The position numbers and the translations under genes were made by a program. The notes below the pieces were generated by a model. That model was not told the DNA's origin and did not search any database. It saw only the letters and a list, made by a program, of their open reading frames with translations. From Bacteroidia bacterium (GTDB lineage: Bacteria > Bacteroidota > Bacteroidia > B-17B0 > Aurantibacillaceae), in assembly GCA_022841465.1 (NCBI GenBank), contig JALHRL010000004.1:1-64000 (forward strand): a stretch of DNA of 64,000 nucleotides, written 5' to 3'. This document shows, one piece after another, positions 19,595 to 40,371 of the stretch. Within the stretch, counting starts at the first letter, position 1. Every line of letters begins with the position of its first letter.

Positions 19595-20749
19595 CTATTC
19601 TTCTTCCTCTTCACTGTTTTTTAACTTTGCTAAAATATCGTACGCTCCATTAATAACAATTTTCTGATCAAGGCTTAGTTCCCCTTCAAAACTAACTTCT
19701 GTGTAATCCAATTCACTTACTCCCTTTTTAACTTCTACCATTCTAAAATGATTCGTTTCTTTTTCAGCAACAAAAACATAATCCTTTCCTTCAAAACTCA
19801 CAATTGCCGCATTTGGTAAAGCACTTACATTTTGAGCACCTGCTTCTATAAATGCACTTAAATACGTTCCGGGCAATAAACTTGCATCTTCTTTGTCTAA
19901 ATGACAATGTACTCGAACAGTTCTATCATTTCCAATTTCTTTACCTATCAAATAAACCGTTGCAGTGCGCACTTCGGTTTCATTTGCCAGTGAAAATCTC
20001 ACCCTCTGCCCTGTTTTAACCTTTTGAATATCTTTTTCAAATACTACTAATTCGGCATGTAAATGCTCTGTATCTACAATCTTAAATAACACATCTGTTG
20101 AATTAACATGCTTTCCAATATTCACATTTACTACCGTTACAAACCCATTGATTGGTGATGTAATTGATATGGTACTTTGAATATTTTTTCCATTTAAATT
20201 ATCTGCATTTATACCAATCATACCCAATTTTTGTTTTAAACCTGAATTTTTTGCCAACATACTTTCATAATTGGATTTTGCTTGCTGAACGGTTTTTTGC
20301 GCATTCACATTTTCCTTTTGCAATTCAAGCTGACGTTTATAATCCAACTCTAGAAACTCTAACTGACTTTTACTTTCTAAAAAATCTTGTTGTATCTGAA
20401 CATAATCAGGATGTTGCATAACAATAAGAACCTGACCTTTATGTACCTTCATTCCTTGCAATAATTCTGTGTTTTTTACAAAGCCACCCATAGGTGCCGA
20501 TATGGTAACCAAATTCTGTGGGGGCACATCCAATATTCCGTTTACCTTTATTGCACTACTCAGGTTTTTCATTTCTATCTTTCCCAACTTAAGATTTACT
20601 GTTGTTACTTGTTCTTGGGTTAATTCCACAACATTCTCAACTTCTTTATGATGGCTAGATTGAGAACTATCAGTATTATTTCTACAAGATGTTATCACCA
20701 ATAAGAATAACAGCGGTGTAATTATTTTATTTATTTTTTGCTTGTTCAT
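19595..20749 (-). CDS. RND efflux periplasmic adaptor (membrane fusion protein), lipoprotein
   Basis: Adaptor linking the inner-membrane pump to the outer membrane, CzcB/CusB type. I chose the ATG at 20749, which yields a lipoprotein signal (NKQKINKIITPLLFLLVITSC with Cys22) and lies 13 bases after the pump gene. An ATG at 20779 would overlap the pump gene. Visible are a lipoyl-like half (ISAPMGGFVKNTELLQGMKVHKGQVL), a coiled hairpin (residues ~110-160), the second half (ITSPINGFVTVVNVNIGKHV) and beta-barrel parts. The C-terminus is an acidic EEEEE tail. It is the last gene of the metal-efflux operon. Confidence 0.92.
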   Translation of the reverse strand: MNKQKINKIITPLLFLLVITSCRNNTDSSQSSHHKEVENVVELTQEQVTTVNLKLGKIEMKNLSSAIKVNGILDVPPQNLVTISAPMGGFVKNTELLQGMKVHKGQVLIVMQHPDYVQIQQDFLESKSQLEFLELDYKRQLELQKENVNAQKTVQQAKSNYESMLAKNSGLKQKLGMIGINADNLNGKNIQSTISITSPINGFVTVVNVNIGKHVNSTDVLFKIVDTEHLHAELVVFEKDIQKVKTGQRVRFSLANETEVRTATVYLIGKEIGNDRTVRVHCHLDKEDASLLPGTYLSAFIEAGAQNVSALPNAAIVSFEGKDYVFVAEKETNHFRMVEVKKGVSELDYTEVSFEGELSLDQKIVINGAYDILAKLKNSEEEEE

Positions 20750-20762
20750 ATAGCGTAATTTT

Positions 20763-23700
20763 TTAATTATTTTTTCCAATAATATATTCTATGTATATTA
20801 TATTTTGATTGTATTTATTTAAACTACTTAAATAATTGTATTTAATCACCAATGCACTTTTAATTGCCTGCAAATACTCTACATATCCAATTTCTCCACT
20901 TTTAAATCCGGTGATAGCCTGCTTAATTATTACGTTTGCATTTGGTAATGCGTTTTCTTCATAATAAGTAAGCGTATTGTTGTTTTGAGTTAATTCCTGA
21001 ATACTTTGTAAATACAAATTTTGCCAATTTATCTGTTCTTGCTGAAGATTACTTTCGCTTACCTTTTGCTGGTAATTTGCAGCTTTTACTTTTGAGGTAT
21101 GAGGTAAAAACCAAAGTGGTAAAGCGATTCCAAACTGTAAACCGGTAAATCGCTTTGATGAATTAAAATACTGATCGGTGCCATTTATATTTTGGTAACC
21201 AATTAAACTCTGGTTAAAATAGCCAATCATAAAATCAGGGAGCGCTTTATTTGATTCAACTGATTTTTGCCTTTTACTTATTTCAACTTGCTGTTTTAAA
21301 TACAATAAAAAAGGGTTTGAATTATATGCGCCACTATCTGCGGGTAAATCAATTTCCCACTTTTTAAACTCTTTGTTCTCAATTTTAACCGGTAATTTGC
21401 TATTCATAAGAGACAGTAATTGCAACTGATACATTTTTATTTCGGTTTGATTTTGTTTTAATAAATTACGTACTTCCATCAGTTGGGTTTCGGCTGTTGT
21501 TTTTTCTAAAAAATTACTTTCGCCCGATTTAAAACGAGCATTGGCTGCATTTGAAAAAGAACTGAAAATACTGTCTTGCTGCATTAATAAAACGTTTTGC
21601 GCATTCAGAAACTCTAAATAACAATAAGTTTGCTTTATTTCACTTAATAGTTCATTTTTAGAAACTTCTAATTTTAATTCACTTCCTTTTGTATGTGCTT
21701 TGTATAAATTACCGGTGGCACCAAACAATGTAGGAAATGGTATTGTTTGCGTAATGCTAATATTATTATCGGTATTTAAAGAATTATACTGACCGTACAT
21801 AAAGTTCACATTAGTTTTACCAATTTCAGTAGCTGTTTTTTGTAAAGTGCGATTGTAATTTACCTCATAAGTGTTTGCTTTAATTTTACCATTGTTTTTT
21901 AAAGATATATCAATAGCCTGTTGTAGAGTTATATAATTATTAGGTACCTGTGCATTACTTAAAATGGGAAAAAGCAAAATTCCCATTACTAAACCATTTA
22001 TTGTTTTACTTACTTTTAATTTTCCCATTCTTTCAAAATAACAATAAAGTATCGGTAATATTAAAAGGGTTAACAAAGTGGCTGTTATTAAACCTCCAAT
22101 AACAACGGTGGCCAAAGGTTTTTGTACTTCGGCACCCGAACCGTGCGAAAGCGCCATGGGTAAAAAACCTAATGATGCCACCAGAGCAGTCATAATTACC
22201 GGGCGCAATCTTACCAATGTTCCTTCTTTAATTATTTCATTTGTATCAGTCATACCTTCTTTTTTTAATCTATTAAATTCAGCAATTAATACAATTCCGT
22301 TTAATACTGCTACACCAAATAAAGCAATAAAGCCAACTCCTGCTGAAATGCTAAATGGCATGTCTCTTAACCACAATGCAAAAATTCCGCCAATTGCAGA
22401 AAGTGGAATAGCAGTAAATATTAATAAACTTTGTTTAAAGGAATGGAATGTAAAATACAACAACATAAAAATTAATAGTAAAGCAACAGGTACAGCAATA
22501 GACAAACGCTGACGAGCTTCCATTAAATTTTTAAATGTTCCGCCGTACGTAGGATAATATCCACTTTTAAACGTAATCTTTCTTTCAATTTCGTTTTGAA
22601 TTTCTTTTACTACACTTTCTATATCGCGTTCTCGTACATTAAAACCAACTGTAATCCTTCGCTTTGCATCATCGCGCTGAATTTGATTAGGGCTAATTTT
22701 AAATTCTACTTCTGCCAATTGCGAAATTGGTACTTGATTTCCGTTTGGCGTAGAAACAAATAAATTTCTAACATCCTCAATTCCTGCTCTATTCTCCTTT
22801 TCTAATCTAACAACCATGTCAAATCTTTTTTCCTCTTCATACACATAACCCGCAAAATCACCAGCAAAACCAGCTTTAATCACTCGATTTACATCTTCTA
22901 TATTCAACCCAAACTGAGCAATTCTATCTCTATTAAATTTTACAACAATTTGCGATTGACCGGTAACTTCTTCCACGTATACATCTTGGGCGCCTTTTAT
23001 TTTTGAGGCAATTTTACCTACACTATTAGCGTAATCGGTTAAGGCATTTAAATCTTCACCATAAATTTTAATTACCACATCTTGTCGGGCTCCTGTCATT
23101 AATTCATTAAACCGCATTTGTATGGGTTGCTGAAAACCAAATGTAACACCCGGAATTACTTTTAATGCTTCACCCATTTTTTCAGCTAACTCCTCTCTAT
23201 TGGAAGCACTTGTCCATTCCGATTTATCTTTTAAAATTATCATTAAGTCGCATGCTTCCACCGGCATGGGGTCTGTAGGAATTTCACTTGAACCCACTTT
23301 GCCAATTACTTCAATTACTTCCGGAAACTTTTCTTTCAAAACTTTTGCGCCTCTTAAAGCTGCTTCAATTGTTTTAGAAATAGAACTTCCTTGCAATGTT
23401 CTGGTTTCTACTGCAAAATCACCTTCATCTAAAGTTGGTATAAATTCACCACCCATTTTATTAAACACTAACAAACTCGCCACTAATAAAACAACAGAAC
23501 CAATTAAAACCATCCCTTTTTTATTTAATGCAAACATCAACATAGGTTGGTAAATTTTTTGTAATTGTTCCATAAACCTATCGGATATGTTTCGTTTGTG
23601 AGCCGTTTTTTTACTTAGAAATAAAGAAGAAATCATAGGAACATAAGTTAGAGACAAAATAAACGCGCCAAGGATAGCAAATGAAACTGTTTGCGCCATG

Positions 23701-25142
23701 GGTTTAAACATTTTTCCTTCTACACCTACCAATGCAAGTATTGGTAAATAAACAATTAAAATTATTATTTCACCAAAGGCCGCAGAATTCCTGATTTTTG
23801 ATGCAGATTCATAAACCTCTTGATTCATTTCCTTTTGCGTAAGCTGTTTACCACCAAACTTTAAAAACATACTTTTACCGGTCATATGATGTAAAGTGGC
23901 TTCTACTATAATTACAGCGCCATCTACAATTAAACCAAAATCAATTGCTCCTAAACTCATTAAGTTGCCGGATACTCCAAATAAATTCATTAAAGAAATT
24001 GCAAACAACATTGCTAAAGGAATTACAGATGCAACAATAATTCCTGCTCTAAAATTTCCAAGTAACAAAACCAAAACAAAAATTACAATTAAAGCTCCTT
24101 CTGCTAAATTTCTTGTAACCGTATTAATGGCATTATTAACCAACTTCGTTCTGTCTAAAAAAGGTTCAATAACCACTCCTTTGGGTAATGTTTTTTCTAT
24201 TTGCTTAATTTTCTCCTTTACATTTTTAATTACCTCCGATGAATTGGCGCCTTTTAACATCATAACAATTGCTCCAACCACTTCCCCTTCATCATTTCTA
24301 GTCATAGCTCCGTAACGCGTTGCATGTCCAAGTTTTATATCGGCTAGATTTCTAATTAATACAGGAATACCATCCGAATTAAGTTTTACAACAATTTTTT
24401 CAATATCTTCTTTCGATTCAATTAAACCTTCACTTCTTATAAAATATGCGTTTGGATTTTTATCTATATATGCTCCGCCGGTATTTTGATTGTTTTTTTC
24501 AAGCGCAATAAAAACATCATTAATACTTATGTTCATGCTACGGAGCTTATCAGGGTTTAATGAAATCTCGTATTGTTTTAAATATCCCCCAAAACTACTC
24601 ACCTCGGCCACTCCTTCTGTTCCCAAAAGTTGCCTGCGCACAATCCAATCTTGAATGGTTCTTAAATCCATTGGTGAAAATTTTTCCTCATAACCTTTTT
24701 CTGTATGAATTACATACTGATAAATTTCACCCAATCCGGTTGTGAGCGGTGCTAATTCGGGCACACCAACTCCCGCTGGTATTATTGTTTTTGCCTCAAT
24801 TAATCGTTCGTTTACCTGTTGCCTAGCCCAATAAACATCAACACTTTCTTTAAAAACAATGGTTACTACCGATAAACCAAATCGTGAAAAAGAGCGAACT
24901 TCTTCTATTCCGGGAATTGTAGCCATGGTTTGCTCAACCGGAAATGTTACCAACCTCTCAATATCTTGAGCAGCTAAAGATGGCGAAACTGTGAGAATTT
25001 GTACTTGATTATTTGTAATATCAGGAACAGCATCAATTGGAAGCTTTGTTACAGAATAAGTTCCCCAAGCTATTAATGCCAGGGTAAATAAACCAATAAT
25101 AAACTTATTGTTTATAGAAAAGTGAATTACTTTATCTAACAT
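20763..25142 (-). CDS. CzcA-type heavy-metal RND pump fused to a TolC-like outer-membrane factor
   Basis: Proton-driven divalent-metal efflux pump of 1,459 residues. Residues 1 to about 1030 are an RND transporter (starts MLDKVIHFSINNKFIIGLF). The TM4 motif is DFGLIVDGAVIIVEA, the DFGxxxDGA form of the divalent-metal (CzcA) subclass rather than the CusA Cu/Ag form. From about 1060 a second module begins with its own signal-like segment (GLVMGILLFPILSNAQVPNNYITLQQAIDISLKNN) and continues as a TolC-type channel with long helices. The fusion puts pump and outer-membrane factor in one polypeptide. The metal is inferred only to class. Confidence 0.93.
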   Translation of the reverse strand: MLDKVIHFSINNKFIIGLFTLALIAWGTYSVTKLPIDAVPDITNNQVQILTVSPSLAAQDIERLVTFPVEQTMATIPGIEEVRSFSRFGLSVVTIVFKESVDVYWARQQVNERLIEAKTIIPAGVGVPELAPLTTGLGEIYQYVIHTEKGYEEKFSPMDLRTIQDWIVRRQLLGTEGVAEVSSFGGYLKQYEISLNPDKLRSMNISINDVFIALEKNNQNTGGAYIDKNPNAYFIRSEGLIESKEDIEKIVVKLNSDGIPVLIRNLADIKLGHATRYGAMTRNDEGEVVGAIVMMLKGANSSEVIKNVKEKIKQIEKTLPKGVVIEPFLDRTKLVNNAINTVTRNLAEGALIVIFVLVLLLGNFRAGIIVASVIPLAMLFAISLMNLFGVSGNLMSLGAIDFGLIVDGAVIIVEATLHHMTGKSMFLKFGGKQLTQKEMNQEVYESASKIRNSAAFGEIIILIVYLPILALVGVEGKMFKPMAQTVSFAILGAFILSLTYVPMISSLFLSKKTAHKRNISDRFMEQLQKIYQPMLMFALNKKGMVLIGSVVLLVASLLVFNKMGGEFIPTLDEGDFAVETRTLQGSSISKTIEAALRGAKVLKEKFPEVIEVIGKVGSSEIPTDPMPVEACDLMIILKDKSEWTSASNREELAEKMGEALKVIPGVTFGFQQPIQMRFNELMTGARQDVVIKIYGEDLNALTDYANSVGKIASKIKGAQDVYVEEVTGQSQIVVKFNRDRIAQFGLNIEDVNRVIKAGFAGDFAGYVYEEEKRFDMVVRLEKENRAGIEDVRNLFVSTPNGNQVPISQLAEVEFKISPNQIQRDDAKRRITVGFNVRERDIESVVKEIQNEIERKITFKSGYYPTYGGTFKNLMEARQRLSIAVPVALLLIFMLLYFTFHSFKQSLLIFTAIPLSAIGGIFALWLRDMPFSISAGVGFIALFGVAVLNGIVLIAEFNRLKKEGMTDTNEIIKEGTLVRLRPVIMTALVASLGFLPMALSHGSGAEVQKPLATVVIGGLITATLLTLLILPILYCYFERMGKLKVSKTINGLVMGILLFPILSNAQVPNNYITLQQAIDISLKNNGKIKANTYEVNYNRTLQKTATEIGKTNVNFMYGQYNSLNTDNNISITQTIPFPTLFGATGNLYKAHTKGSELKLEVSKNELLSEIKQTYCYLEFLNAQNVLLMQQDSIFSSFSNAANARFKSGESNFLEKTTAETQLMEVRNLLKQNQTEIKMYQLQLLSLMNSKLPVKIENKEFKKWEIDLPADSGAYNSNPFLLYLKQQVEISKRQKSVESNKALPDFMIGYFNQSLIGYQNINGTDQYFNSSKRFTGLQFGIALPLWFLPHTSKVKAANYQQKVSESNLQQEQINWQNLYLQSIQELTQNNNTLTYYEENALPNANVIIKQAITGFKSGEIGYVEYLQAIKSALVIKYNYLSSLNKYNQNIIYIEYIIGKNN

Positions 25143-25160
25143 AATTTATTCAAATAAACA

Positions 25161-25185
25161 TAAGCAATGCATAAGGCAATGCTTA
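25161..25185 (-). other. Hairpin between the leader gene and the CzcA-type pump gene
   Basis: TAAGCAATGC at 25161-25170 and GCAATGCTTA at 25176-25185 form a 10-bp stem with one A-A mismatch and a 5-base loop. It lies in the 107-base spacer within the operon, 18 bases before the pump start codon. No T-run follows, so it is not a normal terminator. It may influence mRNA stability or pump translation; this is inference. Confidence 0.5.
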
Positions 25186-25249
25186 CAGTGTTAATACTAT
25201 TAAAAAATAACAAGAGAGATTTTGCGAAAATTAAATTCGCTTAAGAAAA

Positions 25250-25657
25250 TTAAACAAGCTTTGGGGGTTGCCAAATGGTACAAATATCAAGACTTTCAAT
25301 ACGTTCGTTTTCATTTACAAAACCAACATTAATTATTTGCACATAATTAAAACATGAGTTTATGTTATTAGAAATAAAACCAATTATTGGCATATGAACA
25401 CTAACACAACAATTTCCGCAATGCTTAAAAGGAAGGTTACAATCATCGTCATCGTATGACTCTTGCTCACCTTGCATTTCATTTTGATGATTTGAATAAT
25501 GTTGCTGTAAAAAATCTATAAAATCATGCACATCTCGTTTCTCTTCTGCATGATGAAAATAATGTGTAAACAAACGAGGGATTTTTACCAATTCTTCGGC
25601 AAAAACACTATTTGTAACAATTTGAAGCAGTAAAAATATAGCAATAATTTTCCTCAC
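25250..25657 (-). CDS. Small secreted His/Cys-containing protein heading the metal-efflux operon
   Basis: 135 residues, not assigned to a named family. The GTG at 25657 gives a clean signal peptide (M/V-RKIIAIFLLLQIVTNSVFA). An upstream TTG at 25693 is also in frame but coincides with the -33 promoter element, so I rejected it. The mature protein is rich in possible metal ligands: HYFHHAEEKRDVHDF, HYSNHQ, the acidic run YDDDDC, then CNLPFKHCGNCC. It ends IWQPPKLV. Position as first gene before the CzcA-type pump suggests a periplasmic metal-binding or sensing role; this is inference. Confidence 0.8.
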   Translation of the reverse strand: MRKIIAIFLLLQIVTNSVFAEELVKIPRLFTHYFHHAEEKRDVHDFIDFLQQHYSNHQNEMQGEQESYDDDDCNLPFKHCGNCCVSVHMPIIGFISNNINSCFNYVQIINVGFVNENERIESLDICTIWQPPKLV

Positions 25658-25662
25658 TATTC

Positions 25663-25693
25663 CAAAGGTACATTTTTTTAAGTTAGCTGTCAA
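25663..25693 (-). promoter_or_regulatory. Promoter of the metal-efflux operon
   Basis: On the minus strand TTG (25693-25691), 20 bases, then TACCTTTG (25670-25663), a full match to the Bacteroidota TTG/TAnnTTTG promoter. The box ends five bases before the GTG start at 25657, leaving almost no 5' UTR. Confidence 0.65.
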
Positions 25694-25753: not shown

Positions 25754-26449
25754 TCACTCCTTGCGCTCGTTATAAATATAATTAATAATGGTTCCTTCGT
25801 TTGATTCAGAGTCTTCACTTTTCGGGAATTCATCATCTTCTTTTTCCTCTTCCCATTCAAACTTTTTTGGTTGCGGACCCTCTTTTCTGTAATTAAAAGC
25901 AACCAATAAGCCGGAAATAGCCCCAAATAAATGTCCTTCCCAACTCATCTCTTTTTTTAAGGGGAAAATTCCCCACATAATACTGCCATACAAAAACACC
26001 ACCAAAGCAGAAACCACCATTAAGTTGCGATGTTTACGAAATACTCCGCTAAAAAATAAAAATGTTGCCAAGCCATAAATTAAGGTGCTTGCGCCAATAT
26101 GGTAAACAGGGTAATATTCATTGTTTCTTCCTCCAATCCACAACCATAAACCGCTAATTAACCAAATCCAAACAAAAGCTTGTTTTGCAATTGGTTTGTA
26201 AAAGAAAAACAATATCATTCCTAAAACCAACAACGGCAAACTGTTTGAAGTAATATGATCTATATCACCGTGAATAAAAACAGACAAAAATATTCCTTTT
26301 AATCCGCTTAGGGTACGCGGCAATACACCAAATTCTGAAAAACGTATTCCGCTGCTGTTTTCTACCCAAAAAACCAACCACAATACCGCTATAAAACATA
26401 ACGGATAAATAGAAATACTAAAGATTTTTTTTAGGAGATAATTTTTCAA
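25754..26449 (-). CDS. Rhomboid-family intramembrane serine protease
   Basis: Polytopic membrane protease of 231 residues that cuts within or near transmembrane helices. The catalytic Ser121 lies in HIGAST (GxS form) and His173 in GHLFGAISGLL. The oxyanion-side HxxxN motif is HITSN (His65, Asn69). Six hydrophobic helices are visible, and the C-terminal ~45 residues are charged and cytosolic (EWEEEKEDDEFPKSEDSESNE). The start is TTG at 26449; the nearest ATG is out of frame. Substrates are unknown. Confidence 0.9.
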   Translation of the reverse strand: MKNYLLKKIFSISIYPLCFIAVLWLVFWVENSSGIRFSEFGVLPRTLSGLKGIFLSVFIHGDIDHITSNSLPLLVLGMILFFFYKPIAKQAFVWIWLISGLWLWIGGRNNEYYPVYHIGASTLIYGLATFLFFSGVFRKHRNLMVVSALVVFLYGSIMWGIFPLKKEMSWEGHLFGAISGLLVAFNYRKEGPQPKKFEWEEEKEDDEFPKSEDSESNEGTIINYIYNERKE

Positions 26450-39953: not shown

Positions 39954-39984
39954 TTTGATAAAAGATATTAATACAGTATATTTG
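39954..39984 (+). promoter_or_regulatory. Strong promoter of the second RND efflux operon
   Basis: TTTG (39954-39957), 19 bases, TATATTTG (39977-39984): a perfect fit to the Bacteroidota TTTG-N19-TAnnTTTG promoter. The ATG of the first gene follows the -7 box after nine bases, leaving a 5' UTR of only a few bases. Confidence 0.75.
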
Positions 39985-39993
39985 ACCTGGAAA

Positions 39994-40371
39994 ATGAGAA
40001 AACGATTACGATATATATCCAAAAAATTTGTATTGTTTCTATTATTGTTTCAATTTTTAAACGTTTCTTTAATTTGTACACAACAATTTCATTCAGGTAA
40101 ATCAGGTCATCGTCACAAAATAAATTTTTCTTCAACAAGTGTAAAAAAAATATTGGAGGTTATTTTAGTAGATTTACTTAGTAACGATACCGACGGATGC
40201 ACTGATTTTTCTAACGAAGAAATTCTTGAGAATTTTGAATTGAGTTGCAATGGATCCTCACCCATTTTTAAAATTCAACTTAATTTTACCGGCCCAATTA
40301 ATGCAATAATTAAGCTTGGAATTAATAATTACCTGCCAGAATTAACGTCCCCTCCGCCAAAACAATCATAA
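39994..40371 (+). CDS. Small secreted/membrane-anchored protein heading the RND efflux operon
   Basis: 125 residues from ATG 39994 (an in-frame TTG at 39955 lies inside the promoter and is not used). N-terminus MRKRLRYISKKFVLFLLLFQFLNVSLIC is a signal peptide or anchor, followed by HSGKSGHRHK (a His cluster), KKILEVILVDLLSNDTDGCTDF, paired Cys, and the end TSPPPKQS. No family recognised. It occupies the same first-gene position as the protein at 25250-25657 in the other RND operon, and both end in a proline-lysine motif (PPK), suggesting comparable roles. Confidence 0.7.
   Translation: MRKRLRYISKKFVLFLLLFQFLNVSLICTQQFHSGKSGHRHKINFSSTSVKKILEVILVDLLSNDTDGCTDFSNEEILENFELSCNGSSPIFKIQLNFTGPINAIIKLGINNYLPELTSPPPKQS

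Follow-up and report, generated by a model that had tools for sequence, protein, structure and literature searches.

What does a small gene placed directly before a heavy-metal efflux pump do? The case considered here lies in a stretch of 64,000 nucleotides (hereafter the window; contig JALHRL010000004.1 of the Bacteroidia bacterium assembly GCA_022841465.1), in which a 135-aa ORF on the reverse strand (25250..25657; GTG start at 25657, TAA stop at 25252-25250) is followed after 107 nt by the gene of a CzcA-TolC fusion (20763..25142, reverse strand), an RND heavy-metal efflux pump with an outer membrane efflux domain (TIGR00914, 1192 bits; OEP domain). The next gene of the operon encodes a CzcB-like RND periplasmic adaptor (19595..20779, reverse strand). 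An earlier note on this DNA had placed the ORF correctly and had pointed to HYFHHAEEKRDVHDF, HYSNHQ, an acidic run, and CNLPFKHCGNCC, all of which are found in the translation (the acidic run as ESYDDDD), and had proposed a periplasmic metallochaperone or sensor delivering metal to the pump; it missed the C-terminal IWQPPK, a promoter box 5 nt 5′ of the start codon, and the structured intergenic RNA. We argue that the small gene is probably an export-coupled, metal-sensing nascent-chain leader that acts in cis on translation of the pump, the proposed regulated gene.

Read from its N-terminus, the leader consists of a hydrophobic putative export signal (residues ~1-21), a putative His sensor (H32, H36, and H53), LPFK (75-78), an unconserved tether (~79-127), IWQPPK (128-133), and two more residues before the stop. 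Upstream of it, on the same reverse strand, lies a rhomboid-family gene (25754-26449; Pfam Rhomboid, E = 5.7e-16).

The leader ORF and its product

Alignment A1 holds 29 relatives with 22-60% identity to the window protein, aligned over its length, so that the ORF is to be taken as coding and not as a chance reading frame. The protein had been called unassigned, and rightly so: the best matches in Pfam and NCBIfam (E = 0.024 and 0.032, respectively) fall far below cut-off, and PADLOC returned no match. Plasmids searched at the protein level gave no match, and the leader-family profile found nothing significant among PDB sequences (best E = 0.56).

The N-terminal half is helical in the AlphaFold2 model of the window protein (helices at 2-14, 17-24, 26-39, 46-55, and 58-61; mean pLDDT 69.7), with residues 21-50 the most confident (block means 89-91); the confident part amounts to a few short helices, and no structure is assigned beyond residue 74. 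A hydrophobic 12-residue stretch (mean hydropathy of at least 1.6) lies near the N-terminus in 173 of 177 leaders, and by such a stretch the window leader looks exported. The count of K and R at the leader N-termini is uninformative, since the start-codon rule itself demanded K or R.

Recurrence before CzcA in Bacteroidota

The first search covered 60 related genomes and found matches in 41 (E up to 1, weak matches counted), and the 30 loci that it gave were aligned. CzcA is encoded downstream on the same strand in 28 of these 30 (gap 39-582 nt); as to the remaining two, the sequence of L026 ends 93 nt past the leader, and L028 has no CzcA within 1491 nt. Of 392 genomes sampled from the phylum, 95 contained a match to a leader profile at E = 0.01. 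The small leader recurs before czcA in Bacteroidota, a point that the earlier note had proposed to check: a same-strand CzcA lies downstream in 123 of 137 leader loci (within 300 nt in 114 of the 137), where the 137 count one place twice (L028 = L045) and include 20 DUF6660-like loci (L123-L142) matched only by the C-terminal half, L031-L035 having been dropped before the counts as not being leader loci.

Named genomes were scanned with alignment A2 of eight relatives, since a scan of them with the single protein found no relative. This gave 69 further named loci (Flavobacterium, Mucilaginibacter, Pedobacter, Myroides, and Chitinophaga among them), with CzcA within 300 nt in 63. Since the pattern used to find these loci included IWQPPK, their C-terminus cannot count as independent evidence; their last 60 residues are not identical to those of the earlier leaders, and some of the loci may be close relatives.

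The link to RND pumps made at the outset holds for most homologues, which precede CzcA, and fails for some, which by reading of the sequence precede receptor-like genes (L125, L133, and L138), thioredoxin-like genes (L028 and L046), or others. A small membrane protein stands behind the leader in six loci, with CzcA then following in L021, L048, and L079 and with no nearby CzcA in L076, L081, and L114; in all six it has an HLxLxxHxP-like start. L109 has a small membrane protein plus one more gene between leader and CzcA. At L129, the leader precedes a TolC-adaptor-CzcA operon.

A reverse test took the pumps as its start. Of the 86 CzcA-family genes listed for 61 genomes of the phylum, we used the first 70 (the 16 lowest-scoring were omitted) and called a pump fused when its reading frame exceeded 1300 codons, the window's own pump being among the 31 so called. 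A small ORF stands before 24 of these CzcA-TolC fusions with its PP no more than 8 residues before the stop, and before four more with PP at 9-22, whereas a PP-ending small ORF stands before 3 of the 39 unfused CzcA genes; one of these three (L328) overlaps the pump start and is probably due to chance. Among the 70 pump genes examined, the leader goes with the fusion-type pump (28 of 31 fused vs. 3 of 39 unfused; Fisher P ~6e-13).

The window contains a second small ORF before RND genes (39955-40371, forward strand), which is exported by its look, ends in ...LTSPPPKQS, and stops 36 nt 5′ of an adaptor and an AcrB-like pump. A search of 60 genomes gave it no clear relative (best other E = 0.012), and it may represent a further PP-ending leader or merely resemble one by chance.

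Conserved residues, tether, and C-terminal PP

Conservation and spacing were assessed in 177 leaders, a set from which L045, L057, L086, L096, L117, the DUF6660-like loci, and four loci without a rule-based start were excluded. Among the best conserved columns are H32 (1.00), H36 (0.95), H53 (0.98), Y54 (0.95), L75 (0.96), P76 (0.99), F77 (0.89), and both P131 and P132 (1.00). Cys is kept at the four Cys columns of the window in all seven of L001-L007, the window's own subgroup, but its frequency over the 177 leaders is 0.05 at C73, 0.06 at C80, 0.32 at C83, and 0.09 at C84. The His/Cys ligands suggested in the earlier note are thus borne out family-wide for H32, H36, and H53, and for Cys in L001-L007 but not in the family. 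Being unconserved beyond that subgroup, the cysteines of CNLPFKHCGNCC are ruled out as the metal site of the family.

The conserved C-terminal motif, [WF]QPP[KR], adjoins the stop codon (the commonest ends are WQPPK, FQPPR, and WQPPR). PP ends at most seven residues from the stop in 134 of 137 loci (two residues in 39, three in 70), and PP lies within 15 residues of the C-terminus in 135 of 137, the window included, vs. 4 of 328 control genes, which were called by a crude longest-ORF rule with approximate starts. The distance from P76 to P131 has a median of 53 (n = 177) and is kept within two residues in 93% of leaders. The tether from LPF to PP keeps its 52-54 residues and not its sequence, mean column identity being 0.22 in the tether (80-126) vs. 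0.49 in the sensor (25-55). The acidic linker from H53 to P76 varies fairly little in length too (within two residues in 81%), so that this property by itself does not set the tether apart. A nascent chain that reaches from the ribosome through the Sec channel would need just such a combination of conserved head, tether of constant length but free sequence, and fixed end.

The proposed pause site in the window, judged by sequence and codon counts, comprises the codons ATT TGG CAA CCC CCA AAG (IWQPPK; 25259..25276, reverse strand), the first Pro codon being CCC, vs. CCG favoured in the family. W[QHE]PP leaders (n = 142) use CCG as their first Pro codon in 60% of cases (20% expected) and CCA as their second in 49% (28% expected). 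Local RNA energy at the motif is -3.83, whereas synonymous codons chosen at random give -2.12 (the native value is the lower one in 107 of 147), which favours a small hairpin. With the codon bias of these leaders, TTTGGC-AACC-GCCAAA can fold back on itself across the motif; in the window, the two codons are CCC CCA. Leaders that do not end in W[QHE]PP (n = 53) keep PP without codon bias, which speaks against conservation of the motif merely for a hairpin in the RNA and argues that PP is conserved for its own sake.

Predicted pairing between leader stop and pump start

We computed pairing between the interval -8 to +14 around the leader stop codon (5′ arm) and the interval -26 to -4 of the czcA ATG (3′ arm). 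The set of 110 loci is without L045, L057, L086, and L117 (repeat, odd or broken C-terminus), without gaps below 35 or above 300 nt, and without loci lacking a clear pump start. Arms from the same locus pair at a mean of -7.13 kcal/mol, vs. -3.57 kcal/mol for arms from mismatched loci (n = 110), and a separate scoring agrees. With one locus per cluster, the permutation z is -15.7 (87 clusters) and -8.6 (40 clusters), and sliding either interval by 14-22 nt abolishes the difference between matched and mismatched arms (n = 101). The pattern was repeated in 63 further loci (-7.75 vs. -4.80, z = -10.6; five off-position controls, -1.4 to +0.7), a set from which L280 was omitted because the filter found no PP-ending ORF there.

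The 18 loci with a non-CzcA next gene show weaker pairing (-5.52 vs. -3.22, t = -3.4). Ordinary neighbour gene pairs (102, from twenty 20-kb stretches plus the window) gave -4.25 vs. -3.74 (t = -1.7), and those with gaps of 60-130 nt (n = 53) gave a weak effect of the same sign (-4.78 vs. -3.59, t = -3.0). Leader pairing is itself weak at gaps above 130 nt (t = -1.9, n = 25) and at 35-59 nt (t = -1.6, n = 9). At gaps of 60-130 nt, the minimum-energy fold joins both ends with at least six pairs in 62 of 76 loci, vs. 34% of dinucleotide shuffles. When the RNA through the leader's stop codon was made unavailable, the mean unpaired probability of -24 to -4 rose from 0.391 to 0.522, and it was 0.405 with a control block of 20 nt placed mid-intergenic (76 loci in both cases). 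The masking stands for a ribosome stopped at PP, which would sit on the 5′ arm. No Shine-Dalgarno-like site precedes czcA in any of the 110 loci, and Rfam gave no match in the eight loci searched.

In the window itself, the 5′ arm around the leader stop codon (CTTGTTTAATTTTCTTAAGCGA; 25237..25258, reverse strand) is predicted to pair at -10.7 kcal/mol with the 3′ arm just 5′ of the czcA ATG (ATTGCTTATGTTTATTTGAATAAA; 25145..25168, reverse strand). Against all 3′ arms this arm pair takes rank 8, and against all 5′ arms rank 16, of 111 with its own pair counted (7 and 15 of 110, respectively). The minimum-energy fold for the region as a whole (-26.0) instead pairs 25249-25259 with 25129-25140, which comprises the final base of the czcA ATG and the codons downstream; its z-score is -1.54, and 15 of 200 shuffles fold equally well. 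Removing the 5′ arm barely changes the predicted accessibility of the start region (from 0.311 to 0.320). In the four loci whose pumps are most similar, pairing is good in L003 and poor in L006, L010, and L025. Fold prediction also gives two inner hairpins on the reverse strand, GCGAA-TTTAATT-TTCGC (25224..25240) and TAAGCATTGC-CTTAT-GCATTGCTTA (25161..25185); the second overlaps the 3′ arm and would thus compete with the arm pairing. Support from RNA pairing is moderate in the window, weaker than in the family.

Start of the message

The promoter box TACCTTTG (25663..25670, reverse strand), a match to the Bacteroidota -7 element TAnnTTTG, ends 5 nt before the GTG. Of 115 full-length leaders, 71 have such a box 1-9 nt ahead of the start (50 of them at 4 or 5 nt), vs. 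12 of 328 control genes and none of 110 CzcA starts. The start codons of the 115 leaders, chosen by rule and hence approximate, are ATG in 51, GTG in 35, TTG in 22, and CTG in 7. Predicted leaderless or near-leaderless leaders (L001-L122) have non-ATG starts (GTG, TTG, CTG) in 64 of 115. Leaderless messages are generally considered to prefer AUG.

The promoter element of Flavobacterium johnsoniae is described as spanning -12 to -5 (PMC6847099), so a box 4-5 nt off places the first base of the transcript at the start codon or 1 nt before it. For the window, this predicts a nearly leaderless transcript beginning 1 nt before the start codon. Leaderless messages are described as uncommon in F. psychrophilum, making up 5.5% of the mapped ones (PMC9723704). 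The proposed lock requires that mRNA structure around a start codon can tune initiation, and such tuning has been reported for F. johnsoniae (PMC6847099).

Sister families and known systems

By sequence models, the window protein is not a member of DUF2946, HYC_CC_PP, or DUF6660. DUF6660 (PF20365) resembles the C-terminal half of the leader family, with which it shares an IWQPP-like end, a similar spacing, and the position before CzcA, and several matches to the C-terminal half of the leader profile overlap DUF6660 matches; it differs in having, typically, a Cys-rich C[ST]PFCxCxCC sensor instead of HxxxH...HY. The window protein lacks C[ST]PFCxCxCC, and the DUF6660 model has no match in the window protein and matches one of 30 members of the leader family at E = 0.47. 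All 20 DUF6660 loci looked at end in PP, 19 preceding CzcA and one a receptor-like gene. Their arms pair at -7.60, vs. -4.34 for permuted pairs (n = 19; next-gene starts were set by a crude rule and are wrong for some loci, e.g., L179 and L181). Of 32 DUF6660 and DUF6660-like sequences, 29 have 48-52 residues between PF and PP, and three lack the motif.

HYC_CC_PP (NF047658) is likewise a small Bacteroidota protein with conserved His/Cys and PP; unlike the window family, the members read continue for ~15 residues past PP. Sequence reading of 12 loci places it before an RND pump gene in four (L163, L164, L165, and L168) and before other genes in the rest. Its model (cut-off 28 bits) has no match in the window protein and none in the 30 members at E = 1. 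The window's genome has a separate HYC_CC_PP member (G000:C1:219128-219469; L195:2119-2515), which by sequence reading precedes AraC-like, heavy-metal-domain, and multicopper oxidase-like genes and is perhaps a copper version of the same device. A literature search by name, with most subscription papers outside its reach, found no paper on HYC_CC_PP or DUF6660 and no title about the window's leader family.

Among known systems, CutF of Rhodobacter capsulatus (DUF2946) is described as a copper sensor that is exported and that, as a nascent chain, uses a Cys motif and a C-terminal proline motif to open a stem covering the start of the next gene; in a LepB fusion test, the proline motif gave no strong stalling (PMC9973294). 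From the same account, CutF and CutF-like leaders share with the window family a small exported protein (putatively exported in the window family), a metal-ligand motif, PP near the C-terminus, metal genes downstream, and an intergenic stem that shields the next gene's start, and CutF must sit immediately upstream to work (PMC9973294). The window protein (135 aa) falls within the size of CutF-like leaders (<150 aa), and a stem closing the start region of the next gene is predicted family-wide. The CxxC/CxxxC-type Cys motif of CutF-like leaders is present as a pattern in L001-L007 and not family-wide; since His-only CutF-like clusters are reported (PMC9973294), a Cys motif is not a strict feature of the type. 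CutF has CxxxC with a 45-residue spacing (PMC9973294), whereas the window family has His family-wide and ~53 residues from LPF. Unlike CutF, the window family has a stem that joins the leader stop codon to the pump start region without a Shine-Dalgarno-like site. Models of DUF2946, CopL, and CzcI have no match in the window protein and match one each of the 30 members (E = 0.053, 0.0083, and 0.022, respectively). List D of PMC9973294 has Bacteroidota proteins and RND neighbours and may already include relatives.

CruR of Bordetella pertussis (DUF2946), described as acting via Rho-dependent termination, likewise involves a metal-sensing upstream ORF with PP three residues from its end and a conserved spacing to the metal site, DUF2946 leaders being reported to keep 45 residues from CXXC to RAPP (PMC9426467). 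It differs in CXXC and RAPP, in its mode of termination, and in a 162-nt intergenic region, and it controls a copper-repressed TonB-dependent transporter (PMC9426467), whereas the window leader precedes a pump. RAPP/RGPP is, in the sources as available, the C-terminal PP type with shown arrest. Leaders of this type are reported absent before copper genes in Bacteroidota (PMC12992588), which fits a different motif there; an R[AG]PP tail was found in none of the 137 loci. Proline-ending leaders of Bacteroidota are reported before secDF and, by cluster name, secA (PMC10987492). SecM, MifM, VemP, and ApdP share an exported or membrane leader with a C-terminal arrest motif (PMC10987492) and a stem over the next gene's start (as described in PMC9973294), but they are described as monitoring protein localization and not metal.

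Proposed mechanism and alternatives

Because PP adjoins the stop codon, the tether keeps only its length, and the leader stop region pairs with the pump start region, we favour regulation in cis; the leader looks as if it works like CutF and CruR, but with a His sensor and another C-terminal motif. The same three features speak against a metallochaperone delivering metal in trans. What stands of the original interpretation is that the protein is exported by its look, sensor-like, and tied to a metal RND pump.

In the mechanism that we propose, transcription would begin at or beside the leader's start codon, judging from the promoter box, so that czcA transcripts from this promoter would carry the leader. 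The N-terminal signal would bring the nascent leader to the Sec channel. When the ribosome reaches PP, three residues before the stop, ~53 residues would separate PP from LPF, and LPF and the His site (H32, H36, and H53) would then lie at or beyond the periplasmic mouth of the channel. The ribosome would pause at PP, and periplasmic metal, perhaps Zn, Co, Ni, or Cd, would bind the His-type site, to which the four Cys may add in the window's subgroup. With metal bound, the pause would be longer, the stop-codon region (the 5′ arm) would stay covered, no pairing would form before the czcA ATG, and the pump would be translated; with no metal, the leader would be finished and released, and the stem would form and close the start region of the pump. 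That metal turns the pump on by longer pausing is the direction toward which we lean slightly. Several observations weigh against the mechanism: none of the 137 loci has the R[AG]PP tail, CutF's own proline motif did not stall strongly, RNA support in the window is moderate, ordinary gene pairs show a weak effect of the same sign, pairing is weak at short and at long gaps, and the acidic linker also keeps its length fairly well.

Transcription attenuation as in CruR, in which the PP pause would protect against Rho or another intergenic terminator and the sign of the metal response may be reversed, is unlikely but deserves weight, and it overlaps our explanation in that both are metal-sensing arrest leaders acting in cis. 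It has a precedent in CruR as described (PMC9426467), and receptor-like genes also follow some leaders here; yet the 3′ arm lies directly before the ATG and rarely leads into a T run (at least six T in -20 to -1 in 8 of 110 loci), and arms that pair with the start region better fit control of initiation.

A periplasmic metallochaperone or buffer resembling CusF or CzcI, whose His site binds metal, whose IWQPPK docks, and which hands the metal to the pump, seems to us distinctly improbable. The export-like look, the conserved HxxxH plus H, the position mostly before metal pumps, and a His segment within the confidently predicted helical part would suit such a protein, but a docking motif leaves unexplained why it sits 2-3 codons before the stop, as it does the tether kept in length and not in sequence and the RNA pairing of stop codon and pump start, and the same C-terminus is found before non-pump genes. 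The CusF model has no match in the window protein or in the 30 members.

Plain translational coupling would have translation of the leader disrupt the stem, the pump being made in proportion, with no arrest and no metal sensing. It draws on the stem and its position, the best supported part of the evidence, but it has no need for an invariant PP, an invariant His, or a kept tether length, and the gaps, mostly 60-130 nt, seem long for re-initiation; we give it little credence. That the intergenic inverted repeats are operators of a DNA-binding metal regulator, the leader being incidental, is scarcely believable: some inner hairpins are near-palindromic, but the paired arms lie tens of nt or more apart, and their sequence varies between loci while complementarity stays.

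Implications for metal efflux in Bacteroidota

The cis-acting, metal-sensing leader can be placed in a broader proposal, on which we hold the scales evenly balanced. Metal genes of Bacteroidota would share a widespread modular device made up of exchangeable sensor heads (His here, Cys in DUF6660), a tether kept in length, and [WF]xPP at the stop, on a leaderless or near-leaderless message often starting with GTG, TTG, or CTG, with the stop codon within the 5′ arm of an RNA lock to which the position of the ribosome on the last codons would be the key; this would be the usual control of CzcA-TolC fusion pumps. If this is true, Bacteroidota would govern metal efflux by probing the periplasm with a nascent chain. 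Control of metal efflux operons is commonly ascribed to DNA-binding sensors or two-component systems; in the present case, the unfinished leader would itself serve as the sensor and would detect periplasmic metal by way of the Sec channel. The proposal would offer a likely function for the unnamed leader family and for DUF6660, and would extend the metal-sensing leaders by a class that uses His ligands and precedes RND pumps, and by a further C-terminal PP motif. It would also explain the conserved structured RNA before CzcA-TolC pumps, and it would make two sensor heads on one chassis directly comparable.
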